Shown here: piece after piece, positions 34,431 to 53,041 of the stretch | Position numbering within the stretch: position 1 is the stretch's first letter | Layout: every line of letters begins with the position of its first letter | Assembly (NCBI RefSeq): GCF_000189775.2 | Contig: NC_015555.1 | Span: 2,305,001 to 2,369,000 of the forward strand | DNA length: 64,000 nucleotides | Direction of reading: 5' to 3' | From: Thermoanaerobacterium xylanolyticum LX-11 | GTDB lineage: Bacteria > Bacillota > Thermoanaerobacteria > Thermoanaerobacterales > Thermoanaerobacteraceae | Notes under the pieces: generated by a model | Database searches by the model: none | Told to the model about the DNA's origin: nothing | Seen by the model: only the letters and a program-made list of their open reading frames with translations | Made by a program: the position numbers and the translations under genes

Positions 34431-34486
34431 CCAATCACATCCATTCAAAATAGATGATAATTATTGATTGATTATGCTCAATTATG

Positions 34487-34515
34487 ATTATACATTGAAA
34501 ATGTTTTTTTGTCAA
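34487..34515 (-). promoter_or_regulatory. Sigma-A promoter of the fru operon
   Basis: Minus strand TTGACA (34515-34510), 17-bp spacer, TATAAT (34492-34487). Between it and the regulator start are repeated GATTAT/AATTAT motifs (34460-34490) that may be the regulator's binding site. Confidence 0.85.
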
Positions 34516-34637
34516 TCGCTTATATATAAGATTTTCACTTTTTTACTATATTATAAATGTAAAGCTTCATTAATTGTTCGCTTATAATAATATTTTCAAA
34601 CAGCATCTATTTAAAAATGAAAATGGGGGAATAAAAA

Positions 34638-36755: not shown

Positions 36756-36764
36756 GATTACCTC

Positions 36765-37103
36765 CTATCTTAACGCAATTAACGATGCACCTGCAAAGAT
36801 TAGAACTACGCCAATCCATCTTGTCAATGGTATAGTCTCTTTAAATATGAGCCATGCTACAAATACTCCTAAAGCATAAGCAGTACTCTGCAAAGGATAG
36901 ACGATGCTGAATTTTCCTTTTGCAAGAATGTATAGCCACAAGACAGTAGCTAATGCGTATACTATTATCCCACTTATGACGTACGGCGACATGAGTGACA
37001 TCAGTACGCCTTTAAAACTGCTGGCACTTCCAATGCCTACTTTCCACAGCACTTGTCCTGTCACCAAAAGCAGGACATTTACTGCAACAAGTACGTATAT
37101 CAA
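36765..37103 (-). CDS. SMR/EamA-like four-helix membrane protein
   Basis: 112-residue protein with four predicted membrane helices resembling small multidrug-resistance or ArnE/ArnF-type flippase subunits (YPLQSTAYALGVFVAWLIFKE). The start is TTG at 37103, overlapping the DUF2304 stop, with AGGAGG inside the upstream coding sequence. In this cluster it is more likely to flip a polyprenyl-linked sugar than to export drugs, but that is inference from context. Confidence 0.8.
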   Translation of the reverse strand: MIYVLVAVNVLLLVTGQVLWKVGIGSASSFKGVLMSLMSPYVISGIIVYALATVLWLYILAKGKFSIVYPLQSTAYALGVFVAWLIFKETIPLTRWIGVVLIFAGASLIALR

Positions 37104-37471
37104 TTGTCTTTGCCTCCTTCTATATCTCTGCTGCTTTTTTCTACCATATTCTTTAATATGGCCACTTCCTGCGTCAGTTTCACAATGCTTTCTGTTTGTT
37201 TAGATATTATCAATGTAAGGTGAAAACAGTATGAGATGATAAACAAAAGTCCTAACAAGAATAGGACAGATGGAGCGTAGTATATGTGAAGCGCTCGGCT
37301 TAAAAGATTTAAAAATCTCAAATTTGCCGATATGACAATCATCACTATGGAGAAAAATATCCAAAATAAGCTGTACTTCTCTAACAGATTGCCTTTTTTT
37401 ATCTCAACTATGATTATAATTAAGAACAGTATGCTAAAAATTAAAGAAAAACTGTAGACATTAAAAAACAC
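37100..37471 (-). CDS. DUF2304 membrane protein
   Basis: 123-residue protein with three predicted hydrophobic helices (about 5-25, 33-55, 66-90) and a charged C-terminal helix. It fits the DUF2304 family, which commonly sits beside GT2 glycosyltransferases. The start is GTG at 37471 after AGGAGG, 13 bp behind the GT2 stop. Role unknown; probably an accessory to the neighbouring glycosyltransferase. Confidence 0.78.
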   Translation of the reverse strand: MFFNVYSFSLIFSILFLIIIIVEIKKGNLLEKYSLFWIFFSIVMIVISANLRFLNLLSRALHIYYAPSVLFLLGLLFIISYCFHLTLIISKQTESIVKLTQEVAILKNMVEKSSRDIEGGKDN

Positions 37472-37484
37472 AAAAAGAAACCTC

Positions 37485-38195
37485 CTATGCTTTTTGTTGT
37501 TCTTTGGTTTTGATGCAGTTTATAAGTATAGCCAGCGTCACCTTTACCATGTAATAAATTGAGCGCCTAAAATTGATAGAAGAACGTCCGCCTAATCTCT
37601 CATACATCTCAACAGGTATCTCCATGATTTTAAATCCGCTTTTGCTAAGCTTTGCTACAACTTCAACTTCCGGATAATCTTGAGGATAGCTTTCGCTAAA
37701 GTATTTGATGACTTTCCTGTTAGCTGCCCTAAAGCCTGATGTGGTATCATATATGGCTTTTCCCGTTAAAGCTTTTAATAAAAACGTAAAGAAGTATGAA
37801 CCTGTTCTCCTTAAATACGATCCTTTGTAATTGGTCTTCGAAACATACCTGGACCCTATAACAAGATCAGCCTTATCTTCTAATATAGGCTTTATAAGCT
37901 TATCTATGAATCTTGCATCGTGCTGCCCATCTGCATCAATCTGTATTGCTATATCATATCCATACTTGTAAGCGTACTTATACCCTGTCTGCATACATCC
38001 ACCGATCCCAAGGTTAAAAGGAAGATCTATGACTGTGACACCATTGTTTTTAGCGATAAAAGACGTCTTATCGCTGGAACCGTCATTGACAACGAGTATA
38101 TCTACATCTTTATTTGTTAACTTTATGTTATTAATGACGCTATCGATAGTCTTTTCCTCGTTGTAAGCCGGAATGATGACAATGACATTTGGCAA
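37485..38195 (-). CDS. GT2 glycosyltransferase (polyprenyl-phosphate sugar synthase-like)
   Basis: About 236-residue GT-A fold transferase with the N-terminal motif IIPAYNEEKTI, VVNDGSSD and the metal motif DADGQHD. It resembles dolichol-phosphate mannose synthases without C-terminal membrane helices. The first TTG (38204) abuts GGGAG, so the TTG at 38195 with a 9-nt spacer is chosen, giving MPNVIVIIPAYNEE. It is probably the first gene of the 4-gene cluster with DUF2304, SMR-like and GT-C genes. Confidence 0.88.
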   Translation of the reverse strand: MPNVIVIIPAYNEEKTIDSVINNIKLTNKDVDILVVNDGSSDKTSFIAKNNGVTVIDLPFNLGIGGCMQTGYKYAYKYGYDIAIQIDADGQHDARFIDKLIKPILEDKADLVIGSRYVSKTNYKGSYLRRTGSYFFTFLLKALTGKAIYDTTSGFRAANRKVIKYFSESYPQDYPEVEVVAKLSKSGFKIMEIPVEMYERLGGRSSINFRRSIYYMVKVTLAILINCIKTKEQQKA

Positions 38196-38289
38196 TTTAT
38201 TCAACTCCCATCACATTAATACACATTTCATTATATCATAAATTTATCACATAACTAAATTTTGCCTTATTTTTACATCAAAATTTGCG

Positions 38290-38697
38290 TTAAGCCTTCT
38301 TAAATACCCAAAGCTTGCTGCCTACAAAATTTATCATCATTGAAAACAATGTGGCAATAATCTTAGCGGAAAGTACGCCTAAAACGGGTTTTATTGGATA
38401 CAGGATGGAAAGAGATACAGCTAATGATACACCATTGACAGCAATAAACTTGAATATTTCATAACCATGTGGAGTTGATTTATCGCCAAATGTCCAGTAT
38501 TTATTCATCATAAAGCTGTTTACAACACCACAGCTATAAGATATCACCTGCGCCGCCATGTAGTACATTCCAAAAAACGTAAGAACAGTGAAAACCGAAA
38601 AATCCACCAAAGTATTTACTATGCCTACAAGATTAAACTTTATAAACTGTATAATCCCTGCTTTGCTATTATCTTGTTTCTCCTGTCTTTCCATCAT
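38290..38697 (-). CDS. GtrA-family membrane protein
   Basis: About 135-residue GtrA-like protein with four predicted helices (FIKFNLVGIVNTLVDFSVF, SYSCGVVNSFMMNKYWTF). GtrA proteins are thought to move polyprenyl-phosphate sugars across the membrane. Its start overlaps the 3' end of the GT2 gene by 29 bp, so the pair is translated together, a common GtrB-GtrA arrangement. Confidence 0.88.
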   Translation of the reverse strand: MMERQEKQDNSKAGIIQFIKFNLVGIVNTLVDFSVFTVLTFFGMYYMAAQVISYSCGVVNSFMMNKYWTFGDKSTPHGYEIFKFIAVNGVSLAVSLSILYPIKPVLGVLSAKIIATLFSMMINFVGSKLWVFKKA

Positions 38698-39634
38698 CAA
38701 ACCCCACCTTTCTCGCTATGATGTACAATGGTCTATCCCTTACTTCATCGTATATCCTTCCGATGTACTCACCAAATGCTCCTAAGACTGAAAAGTTTAG
38801 ACCAAATAAGATCATATTTATAGCTATGACTGTATTTTCTATCGATACATCAACGCCTGCAATCCTTAAAACAAGCTCTACAATCAAATACGCAAATCCT
38901 GTAACTAACAGAAAAACGCCCAAATTCAAAGGCAATTTAAGCGGTGCATACGAAAACGACGTAATACCATCCATGGCAAGCTTAAGCATCTTTTTAAGTG
39001 TGTATTTCGTTTCACCTGCAAGCCTTGGATCTCTTACGTATTCTACACCTGTTTGCTTAAAACCTACCCAGCTTACAAGCCCTCTTATATACCTGTTTTT
39101 TTCTTTTATTGATGTCATAGAATTCATTACATCACATACTTTTCTATCTATCAAGCGAAAATCACCTGTATCGACTGGTATATCTACATTTGTAAGACTT
39201 TTTAGCAATCTGTAGAATACTCTTGCTGTAAAGAGCTTAAAGAATGACTCACCTTTTCTTTCTGCCCTTTTGCCATACACAACGTCGTATCCTTCTTTCC
39301 ACTTCTCAATCATCTTCAATATCACTTCAGGTGGATCCTGCAGATCTGCATCGATGACAACAACAGCATCACCTTTCGCATTATCCATGCCAGCGGTTAT
39401 AGCTGTCTGATGCCCAAAATTTCTCGAAAAGCTTATAAGTTTCACATTTCTATCATTCATGCTTATCCCACTTAGAATCTCTGCTGACTTGTCATGGCTG
39501 CCGTCATCTACAAATATAAGCTCGTAAGTCTCATCAGTTGAGTCCATGACTTTTTTAAGTCGCCTGTACGATTCTTCAATAAGAAGTTCTTCGTTGTACA
39601 CAGGTATGACAACAGAATACTTTATATGAGACAT
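38669..39634 (-). CDS. GT2 glycosyltransferase with membrane anchor (GtrB-like)
   Basis: 321-residue transferase with catalytic motifs VVIPVYNEEL, FVDDGSHD and DADLQDPPE, then RFIDRK-like RLIDRKVCDVMN, and two C-terminal membrane helices (about 225-250, 265-285). It should load a sugar onto undecaprenyl phosphate for the GT-C enzymes next to it. The ATG at 39634 follows AAGGG and is preferred to an 11-residue upstream extension. Neighbours: GT-C gene upstream (43 bp), gtrA downstream. Confidence 0.9.
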   Translation of the reverse strand: MSHIKYSVVIPVYNEELLIEESYRRLKKVMDSTDETYELIFVDDGSHDKSAEILSGISMNDRNVKLISFSRNFGHQTAITAGMDNAKGDAVVVIDADLQDPPEVILKMIEKWKEGYDVVYGKRAERKGESFFKLFTARVFYRLLKSLTNVDIPVDTGDFRLIDRKVCDVMNSMTSIKEKNRYIRGLVSWVGFKQTGVEYVRDPRLAGETKYTLKKMLKLAMDGITSFSYAPLKLPLNLGVFLLVTGFAYLIVELVLRIAGVDVSIENTVIAINMILFGLNFSVLGAFGEYIGRIYDEVRDRPLYIIARKVGFDDGKTGETR

Positions 39635-39667
39635 ATCTATCCCTTCTTTCAAAATATTTATGTTCAA

Positions 39668-39693
39668 GTGTCAATGTCAGTTGACATTGACAC
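39668..39693. repeat. Perfect inverted repeat at the 3' end of a GT-C gene
   Basis: GTGTCAATGTCA and TGACATTGACAC form 12-bp arms with a 2-nt loop spanning the stop of the GT-C gene. The minus-strand 3' flank lacks a T-run, so it may modulate expression between the GT-C and GtrB-like genes rather than end transcription. Confidence 0.6.
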
Positions 39694-41734
39694 CTTTAAG
39701 ATCATAAAGTTCCCCAAAATCTCTGCCAAATCCTCCGAAGCCATTACCGCTTTGAGTAGAATTTGTGCTGCTCCATTCGCTTGTTGGCACAAGCTTTCCA
39801 TTTTCTCTTACCCAGTTCATTATCTCACTATTAGAGCCTCTATCCATGCCGCCAGTCATCACATACCTTACTTCGCCTTTTTTCACAAGCTCTTTAAATT
39901 GACTTAAGGTCAAAATATTGTCTGAGCCTGAGAAACCTCCTAATGCCATCACAGGTTCGCCTGTCTTTATAATTATGCTATCGGCGCTTTGTGATGATGA
40001 TACGACTAAAAGATACTTTGCGCTACCTTTGTTTTTCTCAAGGAAACTTATAAGCTTAGAATCTGCACTGCTATTTATATTTCCGCCACCGAAATCAAAC
40101 CTATTTCTACCTGTCATAAGCTCTAATCCTGCTGATGGCATGGTACCGTTCATAGGATAAAATAGCGTCGTAGCTGACCAGATAGTAGGCGCTATCAAAA
40201 GCCCTATTACACCTACTGTAAGCATCGCCTTTTTGACTTTAAATCCGCCATTCTTAGCAAAAGTCATCAATGACAAAACTACTGCCGATCCGATAGAAAA
40301 CACTGCAACAGACAACATGATGTACTTTGTAATGTTAGATGTATTGTAGTGGTAGTACAATATGAGAAGTTCGACTAAGCCGTCAGCCACAAATGATAAA
40401 GGCAAAAGCCACGACTTTGTACCACCTTCTTTATACATCTCCCACATTGAAACGATGCCTATGCCTGTAAGTGTCGCTATAGGAGGTGCCATCATCGTCA
40501 AATAGTACGGATGGAACATGCCTGTTGTAAAGCTAAAGTATATAAACACAGGCACAAGCCATGAAATCCACAATATCAGAGAAAGCTTCCTACCATCATC
40601 AAATGGCCTTTTAAGCCTTTTTCTTAAAAGTTCTGCTAAAAATCCAAAGATCGCCATAGGGAAAAGCCATATTATCTGATCAGACAAGCTGTTGTTTGAA
40701 AAAAGCCTCAATATGCTGGCTTTTTCATCTCCGCCGAACATACCGCCCATTCCGCCTCTATTGCCATTTGGCCTTCCAAAATTGCCGCCTGCGAAATTTG
40801 GATTTGCACCATTTTGCCCATTAAACCTTGGAAAATTGCCTTGGTTAACCTGAGCATTGAAATTGCCAAAGTTTCTCCTAAATTCTCCACCATTGAAATT
40901 TCCTATGCGACCGCCGCCAAATCCACCGCCAAAACCTGTGTTTCTGCCAAGCCCAAGCCTCTCAAGCCCATTGTGCCCTATAATAAGCTCTAATTCTGAA
41001 TTGTCTGTGCTGCTACCTACATAAGGTCTCATGCTTTGAGGAGTCATGTCAACAATGATTGCCCACGAAAGGGATACAATAAGTAACACAACAGTAGCTA
41101 ATGACAAATAGCCGATCCTTTTCTTAAAACTTATCTTTGATGCTAAGATGTACGTTATATACACTGCTGGAATTATCATGTATGCCTCCAGCATCTTTAC
41201 ATTAAAGCCAACGCCTACTAAAAATAAGCTTAACAGCAAATACTTAAGTTTGCCTGTGTCCAAGGCTTTCATAAAAGCTAAAACTGCAAACAAAAGGGTC
41301 ATAAGGAGCATATTGTCTATTGTATTGTTTCTGCTGTCTGCCACAAATACAGGTGTTGTGGCCAAAACCAATGCTGATATAAGCCCCGCTGTCTTGCCAA
41401 AATACCTTTTAACGAGGACGTATATTAAGGCTACTGATATGACACCTGCTATGGCCTGCGGCAGCAATATGCTTATGCCGCTAAATCCAAATATTTTAGC
41501 AAAAATAGTCTGTATCCAAAAGCCCAGCGGCGGCTTGTCTATCGTGACAAATCCAGCCGGATCGTAAGATACAAAGAAAAAATTCTTAAGGCTCATGCTC
41601 ATGCTTTTTACGCCTGCAGCGTAATACTGGTTTGCATATCCTTCAATACTTAAATTAGTAAAATTCAATATTGCTGATAATAGTAAGATTAAATATAATC
41701 CGATATTGTCTTTATTAAACTTCAATCTTTTCAT
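39677..41734 (-). CDS. GT-C mannosyltransferase-like protein with Gly/Asn-rich insert
   Basis: 685-residue membrane glycosyltransferase of the PMT_2/ArnT-like type (YkcB/YycA-like). The first loop has YDPAGFVTIDKPPLGFW with the Asp/Lys pattern expected at the active site. An extracellular insert at about residues 265-335 is extremely rich in Gly, Asn, Phe and Arg (GGGFGGGRIGNFNGG). The C-terminal soluble domain binds the acceptor in related enzymes. The ATG at 41734 lies 6 nt after GGAGG. A promoter with a response-regulator-type box lies about 270 bp upstream, beyond a structured element. Confidence 0.85.
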   Translation of the reverse strand: MKRLKFNKDNIGLYLILLLSAILNFTNLSIEGYANQYYAAGVKSMSMSLKNFFFVSYDPAGFVTIDKPPLGFWIQTIFAKIFGFSGISILLPQAIAGVISVALIYVLVKRYFGKTAGLISALVLATTPVFVADSRNNTIDNMLLMTLLFAVLAFMKALDTGKLKYLLLSLFLVGVGFNVKMLEAYMIIPAVYITYILASKISFKKRIGYLSLATVVLLIVSLSWAIIVDMTPQSMRPYVGSSTDNSELELIIGHNGLERLGLGRNTGFGGGFGGGRIGNFNGGEFRRNFGNFNAQVNQGNFPRFNGQNGANPNFAGGNFGRPNGNRGGMGGMFGGDEKASILRLFSNNSLSDQIIWLFPMAIFGFLAELLRKRLKRPFDDGRKLSLILWISWLVPVFIYFSFTTGMFHPYYLTMMAPPIATLTGIGIVSMWEMYKEGGTKSWLLPLSFVADGLVELLILYYHYNTSNITKYIMLSVAVFSIGSAVVLSLMTFAKNGGFKVKKAMLTVGVIGLLIAPTIWSATTLFYPMNGTMPSAGLELMTGRNRFDFGGGNINSSADSKLISFLEKNKGSAKYLLVVSSSQSADSIIIKTGEPVMALGGFSGSDNILTLSQFKELVKKGEVRYVMTGGMDRGSNSEIMNWVRENGKLVPTSEWSSTNSTQSGNGFGGFGRDFGELYDLKGVNVN

Positions 41735-41768
41735 AGTCATCCTCCAATCCTTTTTGCTGTAAGATTAT

Positions 41769-41953
41769 TGTAATAATTTTGTCGCTCATATAAGCTTCGT
41801 GTTCTATGTATCTTCGATTCACTTCCCTCGTTTTGCTAACGCCGTCTATGCGTTGTGACGGCTTTCGCTAACGCTCATACACAAAACTTCGCTACGTTCA
41901 TCGGATACATTAACGAACACTACGCAATATATTCGCTCATAAAATTATTACAA
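41769..41953. repeat. Cruciform-like structured element A
   Basis: Outer arms TTGTAATAATTTT (41769-41781) and AAAATTATTACAA (41941-41953) are perfect inverted repeats enclosing further nested pairings, e.g. GCCGTC/GACGGC and CGTTTTG/CAAAAC, with many TTCGCT-like motifs. It is more GC-rich than its surroundings. It lies in the predicted leader of the GT-C gene that starts at 41734. A segment TCATATAAGCTT recurs at 41980. Confidence 0.7.
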
Positions 41954-42006
41954 ATTAAGTACTTGCTTGAATTCTATCGTTCATATAAGCTTATTCCACA
42001 TATCTC

Positions 42007-42061
42007 AATATAACCTCAGAATGTCTTATAAGTTTCAAATAGTTGTGTGAATTTCGTGTGA
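42007..42061 (-). promoter_or_regulatory. Predicted response-regulator box and -10, site 3
   Basis: The plus-strand direct repeat TGTGTGA-ATTT-CGTGTGA (42044-42061) lies exactly 32 bp from a minus-strand -10 hexamer TATATT (42012-42007). Repeat spacing and distance match sites at 43716 and 46749. It overlaps the end of the upstream GT gene and would drive the GT-C gene at 39677-41734. Confidence 0.65.
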
Positions 42062-43642
42062 TTCTAAATCTAAATCAAAAGTACATACCCTATTTAATAC
42101 AGCCACATCGTAAGATACTTTTACAAGGTAAATTGCCATCACAACATTTGCCAATGAAACCATCATAGGTATAAAACCAAAAGAATTCCTTAAACTTCCA
42201 AACAAAACATAGTACATATTTAAAAAGCTTGTTATGCTGAAACCGGCAAAAAAACCAAATAGCCTCATGTCTTTTACATACAAAAATGCTATTATCGCCA
42301 ATGTTACAGCAGGGAAAAGGTACCTCTCATGCATCCCTGTAGAAAATGTAAATACACCTGCAATCTGAATTAAAGCTGCTAAAAATGACAATTTGCTGTT
42401 TTTCCCTTTAATGTATATAAACCATGAAAATGCAGTCGTTAGAACTATGAATAAAAATCCCCATGTGCTGTAGCTAAATACAAACAATTTTGTACCAGAA
42501 TTGACATAGTTTGCTCCCAGCAATCCGTATAAATTAAAGCCATTTACAGATGCGTATGGATACTCTGAAATGGTCTTTTCATACAGCTTAAATATCCACA
42601 AAGGATCTTGACCTATGGCAAACGGCACTAATACTATAACTGCCGTAACCAGTGACACCACAAAAGCCTTTAAGAAATTTTTAAAGCTTCTCTCATTTAC
42701 AATCTCAAAAAACAAGACTGGTGCAAATATGATTCCCTGTGGCTTCATAAGCACTGCTGCGGTGAAAAACACTGACGAAAGTCCCAGCTTTTTCTCTGAC
42801 AAAAAGTACACCGCTACTATTACAAGCATCGTGAAAAACGAATCAACCTGTCCCCACGCAGATGAATTTATGAATACAGCCGGATTGAAAATGTACAAAG
42901 CCGACATAAATGCACTTATGTTTTTTGCAAAATGCTTATTTGCTATTTTGTATATGATGTAAGATGATGCAATATCAGCTAAAATCGATGGAAGCTTTAA
43001 AATCACATTGTAGTAATGTGATAGATTTCCGATTGATGCTATCTTGCCTATTAAGTAAAGCACGTAGATGTAAAGCGGTGGATAATCACAGCTTGGAGTA
43101 TTTTTATAAAAGTTTAAGATGTCCTGCGATGCAGACTGTGCCCAGCTTCTAAAAAGCCCTATATCGCCTGAAAAACCTTCAATAGTTGCAGCTATGTAAA
43201 GACGCATGAAAAATCCTATCAAAAATAGTAAAGCTATGATAAATGCGTCACTTTGGAAGTCAAGCTTAAACTTTTTATTCTTCAAAGCATAATAGCTTAA
43301 AACAAACAGTAAAAACACTACCGCCGCGTATGCCATTATATACACGCCGTGCTTTGATGATGTCCCCCTAAATCCTCTAAAATCTGCTCTGCTGCGGGGC
43401 ATTTGCCATTGTGATTGGCCATTTTGTCCATTCCCTTGAGAAAAGTTGCCTCTTTGCCAGACGCCTTGATTTGTGCTTCCACTTCCCCAACTTCTATTTG
43501 TGCTGCCCTGTGTGAAACTGTGCTGAAAATTCCCTATAAACCCCTCTGTGCTTCCACTGTAATGGTACAGTGAGTATACACTTAGAATCACTAGCAAAAC
43601 CAAAACAAATGACAAGCTGTACTTTAGCATCTTTTTACCCAT
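42035..43642 (-). CDS. GT-C family membrane glycosyltransferase (Gpi18-like)
   Basis: 535-residue multi-pass membrane protein. After the first helix an extracellular stretch of about residues 32-95 is rich in Gly, Asn, Gln and Ser (GSTNQGVWQRGNFSQGNGQ), then about 10 helices follow with GT-C-like loops (GFSGDIGLFRSWAQ, CDYPPLYIYVLYLIG, NPAVFINSSAWGQVDSFF). The pattern is that of Gpi18/DUF2029-like mannosyltransferases. The start follows AGGAG. It shares the odd low-complexity external insert with the neighbouring GT-C gene, and both have the same regulatory box upstream. Confidence 0.83.
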   Translation of the reverse strand: MGKKMLKYSLSFVLVLLVILSVYSLYHYSGSTEGFIGNFQHSFTQGSTNRSWGSGSTNQGVWQRGNFSQGNGQNGQSQWQMPRSRADFRGFRGTSSKHGVYIMAYAAVVFLLFVLSYYALKNKKFKLDFQSDAFIIALLFLIGFFMRLYIAATIEGFSGDIGLFRSWAQSASQDILNFYKNTPSCDYPPLYIYVLYLIGKIASIGNLSHYYNVILKLPSILADIASSYIIYKIANKHFAKNISAFMSALYIFNPAVFINSSAWGQVDSFFTMLVIVAVYFLSEKKLGLSSVFFTAAVLMKPQGIIFAPVLFFEIVNERSFKNFLKAFVVSLVTAVIVLVPFAIGQDPLWIFKLYEKTISEYPYASVNGFNLYGLLGANYVNSGTKLFVFSYSTWGFLFIVLTTAFSWFIYIKGKNSKLSFLAALIQIAGVFTFSTGMHERYLFPAVTLAIIAFLYVKDMRLFGFFAGFSITSFLNMYYVLFGSLRNSFGFIPMMVSLANVVMAIYLVKVSYDVAVLNRVCTFDLDLESHEIHTTI

Positions 43643-43678
43643 CGCCTTATCTCCTTTTCTTTTATTCTACCTATAGAA

Positions 43679-43733
43679 ATTATAAGACTTAAATGTTGCA
43701 AAAAAATTAAAAAAATGTGTGATTTCTGTGTGA
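43679..43733 (-). promoter_or_regulatory. Predicted response-regulator box and -10, site 2
   Basis: Direct repeat TGTGTGA-TTTC-TGTGTGA (43716-43733, 11-bp period) lies 32 bp from a minus-strand TATAAT (43684-43679) with no -35 match between. This fits an activator-dependent promoter for the GT-C gene at 42035-43642. Confidence 0.7.
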
Positions 43734-43762
43734 AAAAAAAGCAACCAGCATACGCTGATTGC
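43733..43762. terminator. Bidirectional terminator between Uma2 region and GT-C gene
   Basis: GCAACCAGC-ATAC-GCTGATTGC forms a 9-bp stem with one mismatch, flanked by eight A on the left and six T on the right, so it can work on either strand. It would end the minus-strand Uma2 transcript just before the GT-C promoter. Confidence 0.85.
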
Positions 43763-43801
43763 CTTTTTTCAATGAAATATAAATCATAATTTCAACAAGC
43801 A

Positions 43802-43924
43802 TCAATTAACTTTTTTCTTGACGTATTCGTACATGGCTTCAATAAAATCAACAGCATTTTGAAATCATCCATAGACTCTTATGCCTTCTTTCTGAACATT
43901 TTTGTAGAATGGAAGCATCTTCAC
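43802..43924 (-). pseudogene. Short interrupted frame after the Uma2 gene
   Basis: A minus-strand frame of 41 codons opens at GTG 43924, 20 bp after the Uma2 stop, encodes KMLPFYKNVQKEGIRVYG, hits TGA at 43867-43865 and continues in frame with FQNAVDFIEAMYEYVKKKVN to a stop at 43804. It looks like the decayed end of a small gene. I do not recognise the family. Confidence 0.3.
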
Positions 43925-43943
43925 AAAAATCACACCTTGCCAT

Positions 43944-44525
43944 TTAATTTTGAAAGATATCCTTCAATTCAATTTCAAATGATTCAAAAATCCTAAACTT
44001 TATATTGTCTTCTTCTGAATACACTTCAGGTCTTTTGTATTTGCCATCTTCACCTAAATAGTAAGACAATACAGTTTTTTCATCAGGAAATACGATCCAA
44101 TACTCTTTTACCCCCGCTTTTTCGTACAAATAGAATTTTTCCTTTAAGTCTCTCTTTAATGTTGAAGGAGAAACTACCTCTATAATCATATCTGGACTTC
44201 CTTTACAGCCTTTATCATCCAGCTTACTTGGATCACACACTATCACTATGTCAGGCTGAACTACATTTGTCACATCATCATCGCTAACATTTTCAGCAAA
44301 CAATCTTACATCAAATGGAGCGCTGTAAACTTCACAAGCCTTTCCTTTTAGATAATTATGGATAGAGGCAAATAATTCTCCTACAACTTTCTGATGTTTC
44401 CGCGTCGGTGATGGACTCATATTATATGGAACTCCTTCTATAAGCTCCCATCTCTCATCATTAGTCCAGCTCAAATAATCTTTATATGTGTATTTTATAT
44501 GTTCATCTTTATCTGCAACTGCCAT
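43944..44525 (-). CDS. Uma2-family (DUF820) restriction-like endonuclease
   Basis: 193-residue protein with the Uma2 fold: DERWELIEGVPYNMSPSP, VQPDIVIVCDPSKL and MIIEVVSPSTLKRDLKEKFYLYEKAGVKEYW. These give the Asp...Glu-X-Val/Lys layout of PD-(D/E)XK nucleases. Members are frequent in cyanobacteria and Firmicutes, often near mobile DNA; their biological role is not settled. The ATG follows AGAGGTGAAATAAT. It is a single gene ended by the hairpin at 43741. Confidence 0.9.
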   Translation of the reverse strand: MAVADKDEHIKYTYKDYLSWTNDERWELIEGVPYNMSPSPTRKHQKVVGELFASIHNYLKGKACEVYSAPFDVRLFAENVSDDDVTNVVQPDIVIVCDPSKLDDKGCKGSPDMIIEVVSPSTLKRDLKEKFYLYEKAGVKEYWIVFPDEKTVLSYYLGEDGKYKRPEVYSEEDNIKFRIFESFEIELKDIFQN

Positions 44526-44608
44526 ATTATTTCACCTCTTTTAATAACAAAACTATCCGAATATACTTTATAATAATTATACCACTAATTGTAAATTTAA
44601 AACTATTC

Positions 44609-45997
44609 TTAATCATGACTACAGTTTAAAGGATATTTTATTATGAAGCTTACGCCTTTTTCTCTATTTACAGCTTTTATCTCACCTTTATAAAAGTCTA
44701 TGATTTTTTTCGATATGGCAAGTCCTAAACCGAAATTTCCCGTCTTATCCTTGTACATCCTATCAAATATATGTTTCATGTGCTTTTCATCTATCTTTGG
44801 TCCATCATTATATATTTCAAGATATGCATACTGGCCATCTTTTTTTAGTGTCACTTTTATCACTTCATTGGCATACCTTAGGGCATTGTCAAGGATGTTT
44901 TCTATGCTGACTTCTATCTTGTCCCTGTCGCCCTTTATTATCACCTCATCTAAGCTTAAGTCCCATTCAATACTGCTTTTTATGATTTCAAACCTGCTTA
45001 TTATGTTGCTCACAAGATCTTTTAAATTTATATAGTCAGTTTTGGTGTCGTTCTCCAGTACATAATCAAGGGTGTTCAAATACAGCATCTGGTTTATTTT
45101 CTTTTGAAGCCTTATGGCTTCGTCCTTTATTATGCCGGCAGTCTTTTCCAATGAATCGATGTACACACCGTCTATTATGGCATCTGCATGGCTCATTATC
45201 ACCATGACAGGTGTCTTTAGATCGTGTGATATGCTTTGCAAAAACATTTTTTCCTCTTCGTCAGCCCTTTTTAGCTCTTTCTGCATAATATTCATGGAAT
45301 TTGCCAGCATACCTATCTCATCTTCTCTATCTAAGTTTATAGGTTCTTTCCAGTCTTTATGAGCTATCCTCATTGTGTACTCTTCTAATTTTTTTAGGGG
45401 CTTTGAGATGTATCCTGCGATGATTATAGACGTAAAAAATCCAATGATGATGAATATTATTCCTACAGCAATGACCAGATAAAGAATGGTATTGTCCACG
45501 ATATTTGGCACATACGATATAAGATAAGCTTTATTAGACGAATCGTAATTTACTGTGCTTATTATGAAGAAGTACTCCATGTTGTCATAAACTTCTCTAT
45601 AAAGCTTCTCATTCATGTTTCCGCCTTTTATAAAACTGGACATCCAAAGCTTAACGCCAAGTGAATCAAAGGATGGAGTATGAACGTCTGGTGGAGGTTC
45701 TCTATGGTTTATATCTATGATTAAAGGTCTATTGGCTGTATCGAAATCAACAATGAAATTGTCTCCGCCTCTTAGATTTCTCAATCTGGAAAAATTGTTG
45801 TAGTTGCCGCTGAAATTATCATTTTTGAGAAGCATCTCATGGGAAACCTTTAAATCCTGTATCTTGTTGTTTTCTTCAACTCTCCTGTAAGCAAAGATAT
45901 AAAGCATCGACAGGCTGCACACTATGATAAGTATAACAGCAGTAAATGTCATCCATATTCTCATTGCAAGTGATCTAAATTTAAATATCTTCTTCAT
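44609..45997 (-). CDS. Sensor histidine kinase
   Basis: 462-residue membrane kinase. Helix 1 lies at about 12-35, an extracellular domain at about 36-165 with a Pro-rich stretch (REPPPDVHTPSF), helix 2 at about 170-195, then HAMP, a dimerisation/phosphoacceptor domain with SHDLKTP (His) and a catalytic domain with N box (ILDNALRYA) and G box (GNFGLGLAI). It overlaps the response regulator by 4 bp (ATGA). The signal is unknown. Likely output is through the regulator next door. Confidence 0.94.
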   Translation of the reverse strand: MKKIFKFRSLAMRIWMTFTAVILIIVCSLSMLYIFAYRRVEENNKIQDLKVSHEMLLKNDNFSGNYNNFSRLRNLRGGDNFIVDFDTANRPLIIDINHREPPPDVHTPSFDSLGVKLWMSSFIKGGNMNEKLYREVYDNMEYFFIISTVNYDSSNKAYLISYVPNIVDNTILYLVIAVGIIFIIIGFFTSIIIAGYISKPLKKLEEYTMRIAHKDWKEPINLDREDEIGMLANSMNIMQKELKRADEEEKMFLQSISHDLKTPVMVIMSHADAIIDGVYIDSLEKTAGIIKDEAIRLQKKINQMLYLNTLDYVLENDTKTDYINLKDLVSNIISRFEIIKSSIEWDLSLDEVIIKGDRDKIEVSIENILDNALRYANEVIKVTLKKDGQYAYLEIYNDGPKIDEKHMKHIFDRMYKDKTGNFGLGLAISKKIIDFYKGEIKAVNREKGVSFIIKYPLNCSHD

Positions 45998-46677
45998 GAT
46001 TTACACACCAATTTATAACCGTATCCGTATACGGTCTCTATATTCAATCTATCTACTTTCTTCCTGAGCCTTCTTATGGTGTCGTCAACAACCCTGTCTG
46101 AGCCAAAGTAGTCTTCACCCCAGACATTATTCAATATCTGGTCTCTTGACACGACGATATTTTTATTTTTCACAAGATAACAAAAAAGCTCATACTCCTT
46201 ATTTGTAAGCTGTATCTCATCTTCACCTAAAAAAACAGTCCTTTGCTTCTCACTCAATGTATAATCGCCTACTTGCATAATGTCATCGCTGCCATCCTCT
46301 TCTTTTCCGTATATCCTCTCCATAAGCTTATTTGTCCTAATGACAAGCTCACGCGGCAAAAAAGGCTTAGGAAGATAATCGTCACTACCAAGCTCTAAGC
46401 CTACCACCCTGTCAAGCTCCTCATTTCTGGCAGACATGAAGATGACAGGTGTGAACTTGCTGTGCTCCTTTATGGCTTTTATAAGCTCATAGCCATCTAC
46501 ATCAGGAAGCATTATGTCAAGTATCCATAAATCTGGCATATCATTTATTCTCTCCATTGCAGTACTACCATCAAAAAATGTAGTGACATTATAACCTTCC
46601 CTCTCAAGGTACTTCTGCAAAAGTAGATTAAGGCTCTTCTCATCTTCTACCAGATATATCTTTCTGGACAATCTCAT
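45994..46677 (-). CDS. OmpR-family response regulator
   Basis: 227-residue two-domain regulator. The receiver domain (about 5-118) has the acidic pair VEDE, phospho-Asp in WILDIMLPD and Lys in YLPKPF. The winged helix (about 135-227) has the usual tail RRLRKKVDRLNIETVYGYGYKL. It starts at ATG 46677 (GTG 46680 also possible). Upstream lies a direct-repeat box with a -10 at fixed distance, so autoregulation is likely. The same box is found before two GT-C genes downstream. Confidence 0.94.
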   Translation of the reverse strand: MRLSRKIYLVEDEKSLNLLLQKYLEREGYNVTTFFDGSTAMERINDMPDLWILDIMLPDVDGYELIKAIKEHSKFTPVIFMSARNEELDRVVGLELGSDDYLPKPFLPRELVIRTNKLMERIYGKEEDGSDDIMQVGDYTLSEKQRTVFLGEDEIQLTNKEYELFCYLVKNKNIVVSRDQILNNVWGEDYFGSDRVVDDTIRRLRKKVDRLNIETVYGYGYKLVCKS

Positions 46678-46711
46678 CACCAGCTTTTACACTATACTTA
46701 CTTCGTCTATT

Positions 46712-46766
46712 ATTTTATCATATAAAAATAACAAATGTTTAAAGAAATTGTGTGAAATGTGTGTGA
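46712..46766 (-). promoter_or_regulatory. Predicted response-regulator box and -10, site 1 (autoregulation)
   Basis: Direct repeat TGTGTGA-AATG-TGTGTGA (46749-46766) lies 32 bp from a minus-strand TAAAAT (46717-46712). Same repeat, same 11-bp period and same distance as the two sites at the GT-C genes. Confidence 0.7.
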
Positions 46767-46770
46767 AAAT

Positions 46771-46805
46771 AAAAAAGCATGGCGAATAGATAAAAGTTCG
46801 CCATG
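46771..46805 (-). terminator. Second tandem terminator of the S-layer-like gene
   Basis: CATGGCGAA and TTCGCCATG form a 9-bp stem. Six T follow on the minus strand. It backs up the hairpin at 46836-46867. Confidence 0.75.
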
Positions 46806-46835
46806 TTTCGGTAAAAATGATTCTTTTTTAGGCAT

Positions 46836-46867
46836 AAAAAAGTCCTCCAAAGGAGGAGGACTTTTTT
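46836..46867. terminator. Strong bidirectional terminator of the S-layer-like gene
   Basis: AAAAAAGTCCTCC pairs perfectly with GGAGGACTTTTTT around a 6-nt loop, immediately after the stop of the S-layer-like gene. Confidence 0.92.
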
Positions 46868-46870
46868 ATT

Positions 46871-49219
46871 TTATTGAAGAACTATGAGCACTACTCTGCC
46901 AGAAGCATCTTCATAAATCTTTGCGTTCTGAGTACCACTCAATCCATTCAAACCAACAAGCTGATAAGCAGAATTTACTGTGTCATACTTAACAACTGTT
47001 ACATTGCTGCTTAATGCTAAATTACCATGAGCAGTTGTTGTTATACCACTTGAGCTATGTCCAGTAATAGTATCAGTAATTGGAGTTCCTGAGAATGGTG
47101 ATACACCAATCACAACATTATTGCTGTCCAACGACAATACGTACGGAGTTGTATTGCTTGAATTATCATTAACAACTGGTTTTGTAGCTATGCTTGTATT
47201 TGTTGTATATGTCTGCTGTGAACCATTAGCAAGCACTGTTAATGTATATGTTGTTCCATTACTTGTAGTCGTTGATGTTACACCAGTAACAATCGCATAT
47301 AATGTTGAATTAGTTGAACTTGTTGATAATGATGAATTATCAACAACTAATGCACTCAAGTTGCCATAGCTATCAGCAATATAGCCCTTTACATTTAATG
47401 ATGTCACATTGATGTCAGATGGCTTAACAACATTATCACTATTGTTATATACATTTATAACAACAGTAGATGGATTCATATAATATGTGCCACCATTCAC
47501 TGTTAACTTAGTATTTGTTGTATCATAATTAGATGCAACCTCTGGTATCCTAGTTGCTGTTAGGCTTACAATGTTATTATTTGAATCTAAGCTATAACTT
47601 ACTAGATCTCCTATTCTTACATCAGTAGATGTTGAAACTTTAGTTGTATCTATTGTATATGTCTTTGTACTACCATCTGATGTAAATAACTTGATTTGTG
47701 GATTAACTGCATTTAAGCTATCAACAGCTAATACAACCGCATAGTTAGTAGAAGCTGATGTGCCTATGAAAGCAGCAATCTTACCATCTTTGTCAAGTGC
47801 AAATGTTCCGTTGTCATTAACATTTGGTGTGTAATTACCTGATACAGTGTAATTTGTACCATTGATTGTTACTGTGTAAGTACCATCACTTGCCTGAGAA
47901 ACTTGTGTTACTGTACCTTGTACACTATTTCTTACATCAAGAAGCGTAACTTTTGTTCCATCTGCACTTACAGCATAATACAATACATCATTTGCTTTAA
48001 TATCAGCTAAGTTAGAAACAGAACCAGTTACATTTACTGTCTTTATTGAACCACCAGCTACCTGCCAGCTACCTGCAGATGTGCTAATATAACTATCACC
48101 TGATTTTACATCTGTAGAAACTGTTGCAGGACCATATTTAAATGCATTTGTTACAACAACATAATCGTAACTTCCATCATTATTGTTATCAACTAATTTT
48201 ACGTTTGAACCATTGTATATTACTACACCTGATGCTCCCAACGTTGTCTTAACACCATTATATACTACCGGTGTTGTTGATGGCAAACTAATAACATTAC
48301 CATTTTGGTCATACACTACATTTGCAACATTATTTGCATTGTCGGATGTAAATGTATTATCGTTTGAAACAACATCCACACTTACAGGATTTCCAGATTT
48401 ATCCGAATATACATTTACTAAGTCCCCTAAATATTTGTTAAAATCAACACTACCAGCATTTATTGTAGTAGGTGTCTTGAAAGAAATCACACCTGTTGAA
48501 CTTGTACCAGCAATTGCTTGTACTTTTACTTGCCCAGCTGGTACCGAGCTATCTACATCTGGTGTTGCAACTACTAAATATTCTGTCACATTAGTAGCTT
48601 TTGATATCAACTTTGTACCCGAATCAACTTCATTGCCATTGCTGTCATATTTATTGATATCGAGATCTAATGCATTGTTTATAAGCATAGCCATTTGGCC
48701 ACGATTTATTGTTGCATTAGCCGCAAGTGTAACACCATTTGTGATACCTACATTTGTAGCTTTAGCTATTACGCCATACGGCCATGAATAATCTGCTGTA
48801 TACCCTAATGCTCTCAATATCAAAGCAAGAGCTTCTGGATATGTTACAGCATTGTCTGGCTTAAATGTTCCATCTGGATAGCCACTTGGATCAGCAATAT
48901 TTATATCGCCTGATGCCCAATAGCTTGCTGGAACATCTTTAAACTTTGTTGGACCTACTGCTAATTGAGCAGCTTGTTGTAAACCTTCTGCTGCATTAAC
49001 AAAAGCGATCATCTGTGCTCTTGTCACAACACCGTTAGGTTGATATGTGCCATCTGGCATGCCAGATACTAAACCTAACGATTGCAGACGAGCAACTGCA
49101 CTCGCATACGGTGCACTACTGCTCACATCGGAGAATGTTCCTGCAAAGCCTACTGCCATTGCACTGAACACCAATGTGAACGTGAGAACCACTGCTATTA
49201 ACTTTTTAAGGTTCTTCAT
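46871..49219 (-). CDS. S-layer-like protein with N-terminal SLH domains
   Basis: 782-residue secreted protein. The signal peptide ends near residue 26 (GFAG). SLH repeats follow at about 30-90 (FSDVSSSAPYASAVARLQSLG), 92-150 and a third weaker one to about 205. The remaining ~570 residues are Thr/Ser/Asn/Val-rich beta-type repeats, as in bacterial S-layer subunits. It anchors to pyruvylated wall polymer, as does the GH16 enzyme. The ATG at 49219 follows GGAGGAGG; a 21-codon upstream extension has no ribosome site. It has a strong promoter with a long leader and two terminators, suggesting high expression. Confidence 0.9.
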   Translation of the reverse strand: MKNLKKLIAVVLTFTLVFSAMAVGFAGTFSDVSSSAPYASAVARLQSLGLVSGMPDGTYQPNGVVTRAQMIAFVNAAEGLQQAAQLAVGPTKFKDVPASYWASGDINIADPSGYPDGTFKPDNAVTYPEALALILRALGYTADYSWPYGVIAKATNVGITNGVTLAANATINRGQMAMLINNALDLDINKYDSNGNEVDSGTKLISKATNVTEYLVVATPDVDSSVPAGQVKVQAIAGTSSTGVISFKTPTTINAGSVDFNKYLGDLVNVYSDKSGNPVSVDVVSNDNTFTSDNANNVANVVYDQNGNVISLPSTTPVVYNGVKTTLGASGVVIYNGSNVKLVDNNNDGSYDYVVVTNAFKYGPATVSTDVKSGDSYISTSAGSWQVAGGSIKTVNVTGSVSNLADIKANDVLYYAVSADGTKVTLLDVRNSVQGTVTQVSQASDGTYTVTINGTNYTVSGNYTPNVNDNGTFALDKDGKIAAFIGTSASTNYAVVLAVDSLNAVNPQIKLFTSDGSTKTYTIDTTKVSTSTDVRIGDLVSYSLDSNNNIVSLTATRIPEVASNYDTTNTKLTVNGGTYYMNPSTVVINVYNNSDNVVKPSDINVTSLNVKGYIADSYGNLSALVVDNSSLSTSSTNSTLYAIVTGVTSTTTSNGTTYTLTVLANGSQQTYTTNTSIATKPVVNDNSSNTTPYVLSLDSNNVVIGVSPFSGTPITDTITGHSSSGITTTAHGNLALSSNVTVVKYDTVNSAYQLVGLNGLSGTQNAKIYEDASGRVVLIVLQ

Positions 49220-49326
49220 GGAATAAATCCTCCTCCTTAATATATAGTGTATATTTTTCTTTTGAAAGGTGGTACCTTCCAAAAAGCTTTTGACTATGTA
49301 AGCTGGCTCTTTGCCAACCTGAGTTA

Positions 49327-49356
49327 ATTATATCATCGTGTCAATCATGAAGTCAA
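49327..49356 (-). promoter_or_regulatory. Promoter and long leader of the S-layer-like gene
   Basis: Minus strand TTGACT (49356-49351), 18-bp spacer, TATAAT (49332-49327). The leader of about 100 nt holds a hairpin (TTTTGGAAGGT/ACCTTTCAAAA with one mismatch, about 49258-49285) that may stabilise the mRNA. Confidence 0.75.
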
Positions 49357-49491
49357 TAAATGTTACCATTTTGTAATAAATCTGTAATAATCGATTAACA
49401 ATGCTTATGCCGCCAAATAGTGCATTAATTAGATATATACGACAAACTTTTAAAATATCCTTCTTAAATTTAACATAAAATTATTAACAAA

Positions 49492-51036
49492 TTACTCCAA
49501 AATTGGTGCAACTTTTATTTCGAACATCCTGCTCCATGGATATTCTACATCTGCGCCTTTTATCTTGACCCCGCAATCATCGTATATAGACATAAGCGTA
49601 TCAAGATACGGTTTCATCTTTTCTCTTAGCACTGCGTCTGCTTCACTTTTGTTTGTCAATTTGTCTGGGTTTAACCCATTTGATTTTGCCCAATTTTGCA
49701 TCGCATCTCTCACTATGCTCTGGTATATGTAGTCGTCAGCATATCTTATGAATGTAAATGCATAGTAGTATTTCTGCATATCTTCGAAATCTTTTTTATC
49801 CTTTGTCGTACCAATATATGATTTTATGCTTAACTCTGATACTACTGTCCCTATAGTGTTGCTGGGGGTATTCCACCCAGAATATGCATCAATAAGCTTT
49901 ATAAGTTTATCTTTAAGTATTTCTTCTACAAGATCTTTGTCACCTCCGTTTGTTTTGGCTACGTCTGCTACACCAAAATTTTGTCCACTAATTTTATATT
50001 TGCTTACTACATTTTTTATTCCTGTTTTATAATTTTTGTGCATGTGAATGTAGATGATATTTTTCGCGTCTTGCGACACCACTCCACCTATGTATCCTAT
50101 TTTCTCCTCTGTTATCTCTTTTACTGTCCCACCTTCAAAAGGCAGATAACTATTTTCATCGCCGCTTTCCTCGTACACTATCTTGTAAGATGGTTTTAAG
50201 CCATTTTCTTCATTCAATATTTTTGCGACAGTCATCATGCTTATTTCGTCTGCGCCATGAAGCATATAGACATTTTTATAGCCTTTTATAGCGGTTTTTA
50301 AGTCGTCGTAGGAATATTTAAGCATGCTCTTCATCGTGGTATCGTCAAGTCCGATTGTAAAAGTGACATTTGGCTTTAAATTTGACGCTATTTGTTCATT
50401 TATAATGACTTCTGATGCTATTACAGCTATGTAATTAAATAAATAAGAAGGTATGTTTGCTTTCAATCTCTTAAGTGTTTTTGTATCATTCTCTGATATG
50501 GCTTTCTTTATTTGATTATAATAACCTATATTAGCGCTATTCTGGACGTATATTGTGTCCTGCTGATAAAGAACTGGTGATACCTGCGGCATTATAGATA
50601 TTAAAAAAAGCCTTTTATCTCCTGACAAGCCTATTATCTCTTTTAATCTTTCAAGGCTTTCTTTGTAATTAATATCATTTACATAATTTCGCGACCCTAT
50701 AAGCCCACCTGATATAAATTGATTTGTAGATATTATTATAGCGCTTACGTCAGGTCTTTCTACAGATCCTTTAAGCCAATCATAAATCATATCTTGATTG
50801 CTTTTTTTCTTGTAATCATCAAGAGCATCCATAGGAGGCACTAATAGCTCTTTTCCGCCTGCCTTTGCCAATATCTCTACATTTTGAAGAGATACAGGCC
50901 TTGTATCAAGAGGTATAAAAACTATCTTGTCTTTTGACACATATTTCATACTGTCTTTATAAGATGTGTCAATGGAAACTATGCTTACTGTCATCATAAG
51001 TATCATTATGAATGCAAAAAATTTCTTCATTGTCAC
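49492..51036 (-). CDS. DUF4127 family exported protein
   Basis: 514-residue protein with an N-terminal hydrophobic segment (about 5-20) and conserved stretches KIVFIPLDTRPVS, ISTNQFISGGLIGSR and FTIGLDDTT typical of DUF4127. The family has no established activity that I know of. Possible starts are GTG 51036 (6 nt from GGAG) and ATG 51030 (12 nt). It is divergent from the polysaccharide deacetylase, sharing a 90-bp promoter region, which hints at envelope work. Confidence 0.85.
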   Translation of the reverse strand: MTMKKFFAFIMILMMTVSIVSIDTSYKDSMKYVSKDKIVFIPLDTRPVSLQNVEILAKAGGKELLVPPMDALDDYKKKSNQDMIYDWLKGSVERPDVSAIIISTNQFISGGLIGSRNYVNDINYKESLERLKEIIGLSGDKRLFLISIMPQVSPVLYQQDTIYVQNSANIGYYNQIKKAISENDTKTLKRLKANIPSYLFNYIAVIASEVIINEQIASNLKPNVTFTIGLDDTTMKSMLKYSYDDLKTAIKGYKNVYMLHGADEISMMTVAKILNEENGLKPSYKIVYEESGDENSYLPFEGGTVKEITEEKIGYIGGVVSQDAKNIIYIHMHKNYKTGIKNVVSKYKISGQNFGVADVAKTNGGDKDLVEEILKDKLIKLIDAYSGWNTPSNTIGTVVSELSIKSYIGTTKDKKDFEDMQKYYYAFTFIRYADDYIYQSIVRDAMQNWAKSNGLNPDKLTNKSEADAVLREKMKPYLDTLMSIYDDCGVKIKGADVEYPWSRMFEIKVAPILE

Positions 51037-51129
51037 TTATTTCTCCTTTTATCATTTATCAGCTATTATGTACGCTTCTATATTATTTTACAATATGTTG
51101 TGATATAATGCTATTGCGAGGTGAAATAA

Positions 51130-51990
51130 GTGAAAAAGTTCGTGATTGTATTTTCTCTAATAATGATAATTGCCGCATTCGGTTTTTATAGATATGAGAA
51201 AGCTGAAAATTTAAAAAAGTGCGTTCCTGTACTTATGTATCACAACATCTACGCTGGAAATATCCCTCCCAACAAAAGCGGCGTCCTTATCACTCCACAA
51301 AACTTTGAAAAGCAGATTTTGTACCTTAAAGGACATGGGTATGAAACTATAACCGTTGAGGACTTGTATAATTTTATGAAGTACGGCAAAATGCTTCCAA
51401 AGAAGCCTATACTTATAACATTTGACGACGGATATTTGGGGAACTATAAATATGCTTATCCATTGTTCAAAAAAATCGGTTATAAAGGTGTCATAAATGT
51501 CATAGTAAAAAATGTGCCATCTCCTACCAACAAAGTGGTGACTCCATATCCGCATTTTGACTGGATAGAAGCAAGGGAGATGTCTTCAAGCGGTGTAATG
51601 GAGATTGAAAGCCATACTTACGATTCCCACAGGTATGCCAAAAGCGGAAATCACGATATACCTATGCTATCAGGACCTATAGATATAGGCGGAAGGCTCG
51701 AAACTATGGATGAATACAGAGAAAGGATAAAGAATGATCTTTCAAAAGCAAAAATGGAAATAGAAAAAAATTTAGGGAAAGAAGTTATTGCTTTAGCATA
51801 CCCATATGGCGTCGGCAGCAATACGTCTAAAGATGTGGCTGCGTCATTAGGGTATAAAGTGATATTTACTATGGAAGAAGGCGTCAATGTGTATAAAGGC
51901 GACACATACGCTGTAAAGCGTATAACAGTGAGAAATACCGATACAGGTGAAGATATAGTGAAAAAGATAGAGGCGTATGAAGGAAAGTGA
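51130..51990 (+). CDS. Polysaccharide deacetylase (CE4), membrane-anchored
   Basis: 286-residue carbohydrate esterase family 4 protein. An N-terminal helix (about 4-18) anchors it outside the cell. The catalytic core shows VLMYHNI, the metal/base motif TFDDGY, the second metal motif ESHTYDSH and a downstream LAYPYG. Likely substrates are N-acetylated wall polysaccharides. The start is GTG at 51130 after GAGGTGAAATAA. It converges on the acyltransferase relic. Confidence 0.92.
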   Translation: MKKFVIVFSLIMIIAAFGFYRYEKAENLKKCVPVLMYHNIYAGNIPPNKSGVLITPQNFEKQILYLKGHGYETITVEDLYNFMKYGKMLPKKPILITFDDGYLGNYKYAYPLFKKIGYKGVINVIVKNVPSPTNKVVTPYPHFDWIEAREMSSSGVMEIESHTYDSHRYAKSGNHDIPMLSGPIDIGGRLETMDEYRERIKNDLSKAKMEIEKNLGKEVIALAYPYGVGSNTSKDVAASLGYKVIFTMEEGVNVYKGDTYAVKRITVRNTDTGEDIVKKIEAYEGK

Positions 51991-51997
51991 TGAAGCA

Positions 51998-53041
51998 TCA
52001 TTTGCCGACGACAACCGCGGCAAATTTGTGCTTTTTAATAGACATTGCAAAAATATATGACACTACATAAATTATAACAAATGTCATTATTATGTAAATA
52101 TCGTATAGATATTGATTGCCTGTATTTAAAAAGTGATTTAGCACATCTAAAAAGAGCGGATGGGACAGATATATGCCAAATGAAAGCTTGCCTGTATTTG
52201 ACAATAAGCCGCTTAAAGCATGGTAATTTAATATTTTCGTCGATAAAGCGAAAAAAAAACAACAATGCCACAAGCGTAAACGCATAATAATAAATATTGT
52301 ACAGATTAGAGTCTATCTGTTTATCTGCAAATACTTTTAATGATATATCAATAAAAAGATAGCCAAATACAATTACAGCAAAAAACGAATTAAGCAATTT
52401 TTTATGGTAATATTTTCCCCACTCACGTATGTTTTCACCGACATACATACCTGCGATTATAAACGATATGTAAGTTATAAAAAGATCGCCAGAATTTTGG
52501 TAATATCTACTTATGAAGTATTTGAACAGCAATATACTCCCTGCCTGAAATATTATAATAGATAACACTATCGTATGTATGTTTTTATTTATAAGTCTAT
52601 ATATATATAAAGCAGTACAGGAAACAAAACATATAGTTGCACTATTATGACTATGAAATAAAGATGGTAGAACATGCCACCAAACAAGATATTTTTAATT
52701 GTCAATATCGATCTTAATGGCACATGATGCGCTATGTACAAATATGCACCGTATATTATTGTCCAGACAGCATACAGCATCAATACGTTTTTAAGCCGTT
52801 TTTTATAAAATAACCTCCAATCACACCCATCGCCGTAATTGTACATGAGAAGCATGGCTGATGCGAATATAAAAGCTGGAACTGCAAACTGTGAAAGCCT
52901 GTTTATAATAGCAAATATGATATAAGATAAAGATAATTTGTTTAATTGAACAACTGCATTTGAAGTAGTATGTATCATCAAAACCGCTATTATAGATATA
53001 CCCTTCAATACATCAATCTCGTCTATCCGTGATTTTGTCAT
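51998..53041 (-). pseudogene. Acyltransferase family 3 (OafA-like), two slippage frameshifts
   Basis: Three minus-strand frames join into one membrane O-acyltransferase of about 345 residues. Frame one (53041-52589) has DVLKGISIIAVLMIH with the family His and ends just after a (TA)6 tract (about 52598-52609). Frame two runs from there through IIIFQAGSILLFKYFI to a nine-T tract near 52250. Frame three gives KLSFGIYLSHPLFLDVLN to a stop at 51998. Both breaks fall in simple repeats, so this is either a pseudogene, a phase-variable gene or a sequencing artefact. It would acetylate surface polysaccharide. Confidence 0.8.

Follow-up and report, generated by a model that had tools for sequence, protein, structure and literature searches.

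In Bacillus subtilis, the two-component system YclJK has been reported to activate ykcBC together with yngABC, which include the genes for the GtrA-like protein YngA and the UGPase YngB, and a YkcC-YngA-YkcB glycosylation system with an unknown acceptor has been proposed in the same organism (PMC7961091). The ykcBC genes also belong to the regulon of YrkP (PMC5836110), and in C. difficile the HexRK system controls the glycolipid operon hexSDF, its kinase HexK resembling YrkQ and having two transmembrane helices and a sensor domain of ~120 aa (PMC10128005). The route formed by a UDP-glucose synthase, a C55-P-sugar synthase, a GtrA flippase and a GT-C transferase is likewise of a known type (PMC8035078). 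No report on the system described below was found in the literature searched, for either Thermoanaerobacterium or Clostridium.

The DNA analyzed here, referred to as the window, is a stretch of 64,000 nucleotides from Thermoanaerobacterium xylanolyticum LX-11 (G000:C1:2305001-2369000), in which a run of seven genes, all on the minus strand, includes a two-component system and a set of predicted glycosylation proteins (Table 1). The regulator combines a receiver with a winged-helix Trans_reg_C domain and adjoins a HisKA/HATPase kinase, as expected for the OmpR/PhoB family. The genes ykcB, GT2 (GtrB-like) and gtrA form one operon under box 3; the nearest solved structure to the GT2 is the GtrB-type sll0501, and its nearest NCBIfam family is PgfS. 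Sequence matches for GT-C1 are weak, and its assignment to the GT-C fold comes from a predicted model of only moderate confidence (pLDDT 62, pTM 0.69) that matches ALG6, PimE, GPI mannosyltransferase I and ALG3. The Uma2-family gene is probably not part of the system, since the loci inspected in G001, G007 and Clostridium yielded no Uma2 match. A search of Rfam with positions 34000-52000 returned no RNA family. Two further elements lie nearby. The leader of ykcB carries, between promoter and gene, a MITE-like element of ~195 bp (approximately 41768-41960) with 13-bp inverted ends (TTGTAATAATTTT), which is present in G000, G001, G002 and G004 and missing from G003, G006 and G007. Just upstream of the regulator, an SLH-domain-like surface protein (46871-49282) is unusually divergent, with 38-50% identity in four congeners and less in G007, compared with ~80-95% for its neighbors in most of the genomes compared; this protein could be a candidate acceptor for glycosylation.

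Table 1 Genes, boxes and -10 hexamers of the locus, in window coordinates (box sequences given on the coding strand)
Feature	Position	Strand	Sequence	Remarks
Response regulator, OmpR/PhoB-type	45994..46680	-		Pfam Response_reg + Trans_reg_C; translation possibly starts a few codons further on, at an internal TTG
Sensor histidine kinase	44609..45997	-		Two TM helices, ~140-residue extracytoplasmic domain, HAMP, HisKA, HATPase
Uma2-family gene	43944..44525	-		Between kinase and GT-C1
GT-C1, polytopic GT-C-fold glycosyltransferase	42035..43642	-		Weak Alg6_Alg8 match and predicted fold
YkcB-like GT-C glycosyltransferase	39677..41740	-		PMT_2 + YkcB_C
GT2 polyprenyl-phosphate-sugar synthase, GtrB/PgfS/ArnC type	38669..39667	-		E 1.7e-84 to sll0501; PgfS E 4e-86
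GtrA-type flippase	38290..38700	-		Pfam GtrA_DPMS_TM, E 4.6e-28
Regulator box 1	46749..46766	-	TCACACACATTTCACACA	Promoter of response-regulator gene (putative autoregulation)
Regulator box 2	43716..43733	-	TCACACAGAAATCACACA	Promoter of GT-C1
Regulator box 3	42044..42061	-	TCACACGAAATTCACACA	Overlaps 3' end of GT-C1; promoter of ykcB operon
-10 hexamer	46717-46712	-	TAAAAT	31 nt downstream of box 1; TG before the hexamer = extended -10
-10 hexamer	43684-43679	-	TATAAT	31 nt downstream of box 2
-10 hexamer	42012-42007	-	TATATT	31 nt downstream of box 3

The pattern TCACACR-N4-TCACACA (TGTGTGA-N4-YGTGTGA on the opposite strand) has exactly three matches in the 2.53-Mb genome, all inside a 4.7-kb stretch at this locus, and allowing up to one mismatch still returned the same number, all at the locus, with 0 matches for the reversed control over the complete genome. 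Within the 64-kb window, shuffled sequence gave a mean of 0.61 matches with two mismatches allowed, compared to the three exact matches observed. The gap from box to -10 is the same in 3/3 promoters, the flanks of the promoters are unlike one another, and a consensus scan at 16-18 bp found no recognizable -35 in the two glycosyltransferase promoters (boxes 2 and 3). An earlier note on this DNA, which had placed boxes at 46749, 43716 and 42044 before the regulator and two GT-C genes, was accurate as to their positions, the genes that follow and the minus-strand hexamers, each at a constant distance; its 32 bp corresponds to the 31 intervening nucleotides when counted position to position, and the 11-bp-period direct repeats that it compared to OmpR-family sites are indeed present. 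Its description of the boxes as identical was slightly overstated, as the repeats agree except for one A/G and the 4-nt spacers differ, and the second of its GT-C genes proved to be the first gene of the ykcB-GT2-gtrA operon. The genome scan against a control that it had proposed returned no stray matches anywhere.

Boxes of the same kind were tracked through 24 genomes of the order, including this one. The pattern TCACAYR-N4-TCACAYA, searched with no -10 constraint, has 33 copies (reversed control 0), and each of the 33 precedes one of four gene groups, namely the response regulator, GT-C1, the ykcB operon or galU. When a -10 was required, 29 matches were obtained in nine Thermoanaerobacterium genomes, with a control of 0 and a spacing of 31 in all; with one more outside that genus scan, TANNNT lies 31 nt downstream of 30 of the 33 boxes. 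The remaining three, with no -10 at that distance, precede galU in G000, G003 and G004, where a shared deletion eliminated the -10 along with the beginning of galU but spared the box, so that a pseudogene resulted. All eight sampled congeners contain boxes, and box 1 is kept in seven of them (up to two mismatches), the orthologous regulator promoters having TAAAAT or TAGAAT as the -10; spacer bases change between species and the repeats stay. The regulator gene of G007 closely follows another gene and has no box upstream, while the targets in that genome are boxed, which indicates that autoregulation is not universal. The ykcB box is missing in G008, where a deletion joined the flanking genes, and was not assembled in the fragmented G005. 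At the G008 locus (L063, 5493-6870), ykcB is deleted and a truncated GT-C1 is fused to a truncated GT2, with the GT-C1 box retained. The fourth target, galU, survives here only as a decayed remnant (G000:C1:818972, locus L069; also L104 and L105 for the other two genomes), its box intact upstream of the deletion. A scan for other targets within two mismatches gave mostly scattered sequences near the control rate, several of which recur at apparently orthologous coding positions. The only further convincing target is a gene for a 52-aa peptide that contains an internal repeat (QSSIAPAIVITQK ... QSSIAPGIIIAKK); in three species a one-mismatch box at the same spacing precedes this gene (L177, L178 and L179 in G002, G006 and G008); in G008, ~2.6 kb separates box and gene.

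The system extends beyond the order. Clostridium and related bins encode kinase orthologs of 58-64% identity, and at their loci the box recurs with its 31-nt spacing and its target classes, the regulator promoter carrying the variant ACACAYA-N4-TCACAYA. A scan for box plus -10 in ten clostridial-type genomes produced 22 matches in nine of them, of which a few may be chance, with a control of 0. These precede the regulator, GT-C1, GT2, ykcB and gtrA, among others, and in some Clostridium species also a MacAB/HlyD-type exporter, methyl-accepting chemotaxis proteins, a beta-lactamase-family protein and small secreted or unknown proteins. All that is left of the locus in C. bowmanii is a set of kinase fragments immediately following an intact box; no regulator was found there, and a strict box plus -10 was found nowhere in the 4.9 Mb of that genome; this natural loss is consistent with the neighboring regulator being the reader of the boxes. 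Conservation in related species, which the earlier note had suggested checking upstream of orthologous genes, is thus seen in congeners, one genome of a sister genus and Clostridium. The regulon that the note proposed is wider than its three genes, with galU added in relatives and GT2 and gtrA through the ykcB operon, and its link between a two-component system and surface glycosylation is supported; calling the pair uncharacterised was too strong, as B. subtilis YclJK and YrkPQ have been reported to act on corresponding genes.

These features compare closely with the B. subtilis systems. As in YclJK, an OmpR-family two-component system appears to stand over a YkcB-type GT-C, a GT2 C55-P-sugar synthase, a GtrA-type flippase and a UGPase (PMC7961091). 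Judged by the boxes, which cover ykcB-GT2-gtrA and galU, the putative targets here are of the YclJK type, and a GT2 predicted to make a C55-P-sugar, a GtrA flippase and a GT-C transferase complete the three-component glycosylation set. The arrangement differs from that of YclJK in that ykcB, GT2 and gtrA form one operon adjoining the system with galU separate, and in the additional GT-C1, the MCP and exporter targets in Clostridium, the TCACAYA core of the box and the anaerobic hosts. Control of small envelope-glycosylation or glycolipid regulons by two-component systems is shared with YrkPQ and HexRK, of which YrkP also reaches ykcBC; HexRK, unlike the system here, acts on the hexSDF glycolipid genes and not on GT-C genes, and no homologues of hexS, hexD or hexF were present among the box targets with gene context read. 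The combination of GT2, GtrA flippase and GT-C, encoded here in one operon, also occurs in CsbB-GtcA-YfhO, GtlA-GtcA-GtlB and GtrB-GtrA-GT-C, and differs here in having two GT-Cs under what would be one regulator. From this comparison, the system is best seen as the probable Thermoanaerobacterium/Clostridium counterpart of the B. subtilis YclJK arrangement. A narrower form of this view, that the system is a direct ortholog of YclJK (or YrkPQ), the known regulon as it occurs in Clostridia, and answers to oxygen limitation, envelope stress or a like cue, is possible and can be held only tentatively. The YclJ site is reportedly a similar direct repeat, with TTCATA-type units spaced 11 bp apart, and the GalU under a box in the sister genus (G018) has YngB as its nearest solved structure. 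The reported action of YclJ on ykcBC and yngABC (PMC7961091) and the inclusion of ykcBC in the YrkP regulon (PMC5836110) also favor it. Against it, an oxygen-limitation cue makes little sense in the organisms named here, which belong to anaerobic genera, and GT-C1, the MCP and the MacAB-type exporter are not among the YclJ targets named in the portion of that report available (PMC7961091).

The anatomy of the operator bears on the direction of control. Across 26 representative target promoters, the units TCACAYA, TCACAYA, YTTGATA and TGCNACA follow one another at an 11-bp period from about -61 to -22, with the first two strong (about -61 to -44) and the last two weak; the -10 starts nine bases after the fourth unit, and information is concentrated in the repeats and not in the spacers. 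Direct repeats ~10-11 bp apart upstream of the -35 are typical of OmpR/PhoB operators, binding by this regulator being putative. OmpR-family regulators may be either activators or repressors, and such geometry is shared by PhoP-type activators; in B. subtilis, PhoP box promoters have direct repeats of 11-bp period that reach over the -35 of activated promoters, with the consensus TTAACA. The promoters here resemble these in having 11-bp direct repeats over the -35 region, and differ in their TCACAYA consensus and their targets, with no link to phosphate genes found. Judged by the position of the box and the lack of a normally spaced -35 in the glycosyltransferase promoters, activation by the regulator is likelier than repression. 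Repression, to which the weak third and fourth repeats covering the -35 region would lend themselves, is quite improbable given that the strong repeats stand upstream of the -35, always in the same helical phase relative to the -10, and that promoters without a normally spaced -35 have the layout of activated promoters.

The distribution of the regulator follows that of the boxes. At a threshold of E <= 1e-60, orthologs of the regulator were found in 10 of the 20 genomes of the family, and boxes occur in exactly those ten among the order's 24, a correspondence that represents few independent events, as nine of the ten belong to one genus. The tenth, G018, is the only sampled genome of its genus (g3) with the regulator and the only one with a box, which precedes galU and then GT-C1, with GT2 and gtrA next along. 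In a maximum-likelihood tree, which has long branches and an uncertain deeper order, the 17 box-associated regulators fall on one side of a branch with support of 86/97 that is present in 84% of bootstrap trees. The nearest box-less regulators, taken from the phylum sample as outgroup, are 52-61% identical, and no boxes were found in the ~3-kb neighborhoods of these sisters; the recognition-helix segment reads DDTIRR (once DDTLRR) in the box clade versus DDL(V/I)RR in the box-less sisters. A search for the regulator in viral contigs found nothing, and one in plasmids found only a 46% relative. It could be argued that a different regulator, such as an htrA-linked paralog, reads the boxes and that the adjacent two-component system is merely another target, since htrA and a sigma-factor/HlyD/ABC/MacB operon also have TCACA repeats of 11-bp period in front of them and at least one other regulator may therefore recognize TCACA units. 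This is very improbable in view of the exact match between the boxes and this regulator clade, their absence around the sister regulators examined, their disappearance where the two-component system has degraded and the distinct form of the htrA-type boxes, which have three repeats with TCACAAA as the second unit. An origin of the boxes by chance or as a dispersed repeat, for which nothing speaks except AT-rich composition, is ruled out by the whole-genome counts with their reversed controls (33 boxes against 0), and is also contradicted by the differing promoter flanks, the retention of orthologous positions and the boxing of the same targets in Clostridium. The boxes are thus, very probably, conserved binding sites for the neighboring two-component regulator, as their distribution among genomes suggests. 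The three-repeat box (TCACAYAANTTTCACAAAATTTTCACA, 11-bp period) is found before htrA, with a response regulator adjoining, and separately before a sigma-70-family gene followed by the HlyD/ABC/MacB exporter (L180, G001:C1:42000-49000; L181; and G000:C1:2304673-2304727, just outside the window); it is possibly the operator of another two-component system.

Taken together, the comparative evidence argues, with a probability of roughly 0.86, that an OmpR-family two-component system, which also regulates itself, governs extracytoplasmic glycosylation through these boxes. In the mechanism that we infer, the ~140-residue extracytoplasmic domain of the kinase would detect a signal from the envelope or the environment, and the kinase would phosphorylate the regulator, which would bind head-to-tail as a dimer, possibly a tetramer, on the TCACAYA repeats 11 bp apart and recruit RNA polymerase to promoters whose -10 is good and whose -35 is poor, raising its own synthesis and that of the glycosylation pathway. 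In relatives, GalU would make UDP-glucose; the GtrB-like GT2 would charge undecaprenyl phosphate, GtrA would flip the charged carrier, and YkcB and GT-C1 would transfer the sugar to an acceptor outside the membrane. A more specific proposal is that the system forms a distinct clostridial two-component clade, not orthologous to YclJ/YrkP, that serves a single pathway (from UDP-glucose via C55-P-glucose to GT-C) through a nearly error-free operator, the four-repeat TCACAYA array at a fixed 31 nt from the -10, and has been extended in some Clostridium to exporters and chemoreceptors. We regard this as rather unlikely as it stands; if true, it would couple the sensing of an envelope threat to surface glycosylation. 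For autoregulated control of glycosylation through the boxes, the main reading, the consequence is that an orphan two-component system gains a concrete, testable role, with a sharply delimited regulon, such that the operators of a Thermoanaerobacterium genome can be listed without visible false positives. The YkcB/GtrB/GtrA/GalU set would then be conserved, and co-regulated as a unit, across Thermoanaerobacterium and Clostridium alike, and the inducing signal or the glycosylated acceptor, once identified in a single tractable thermophile, would shed light on all of these systems.
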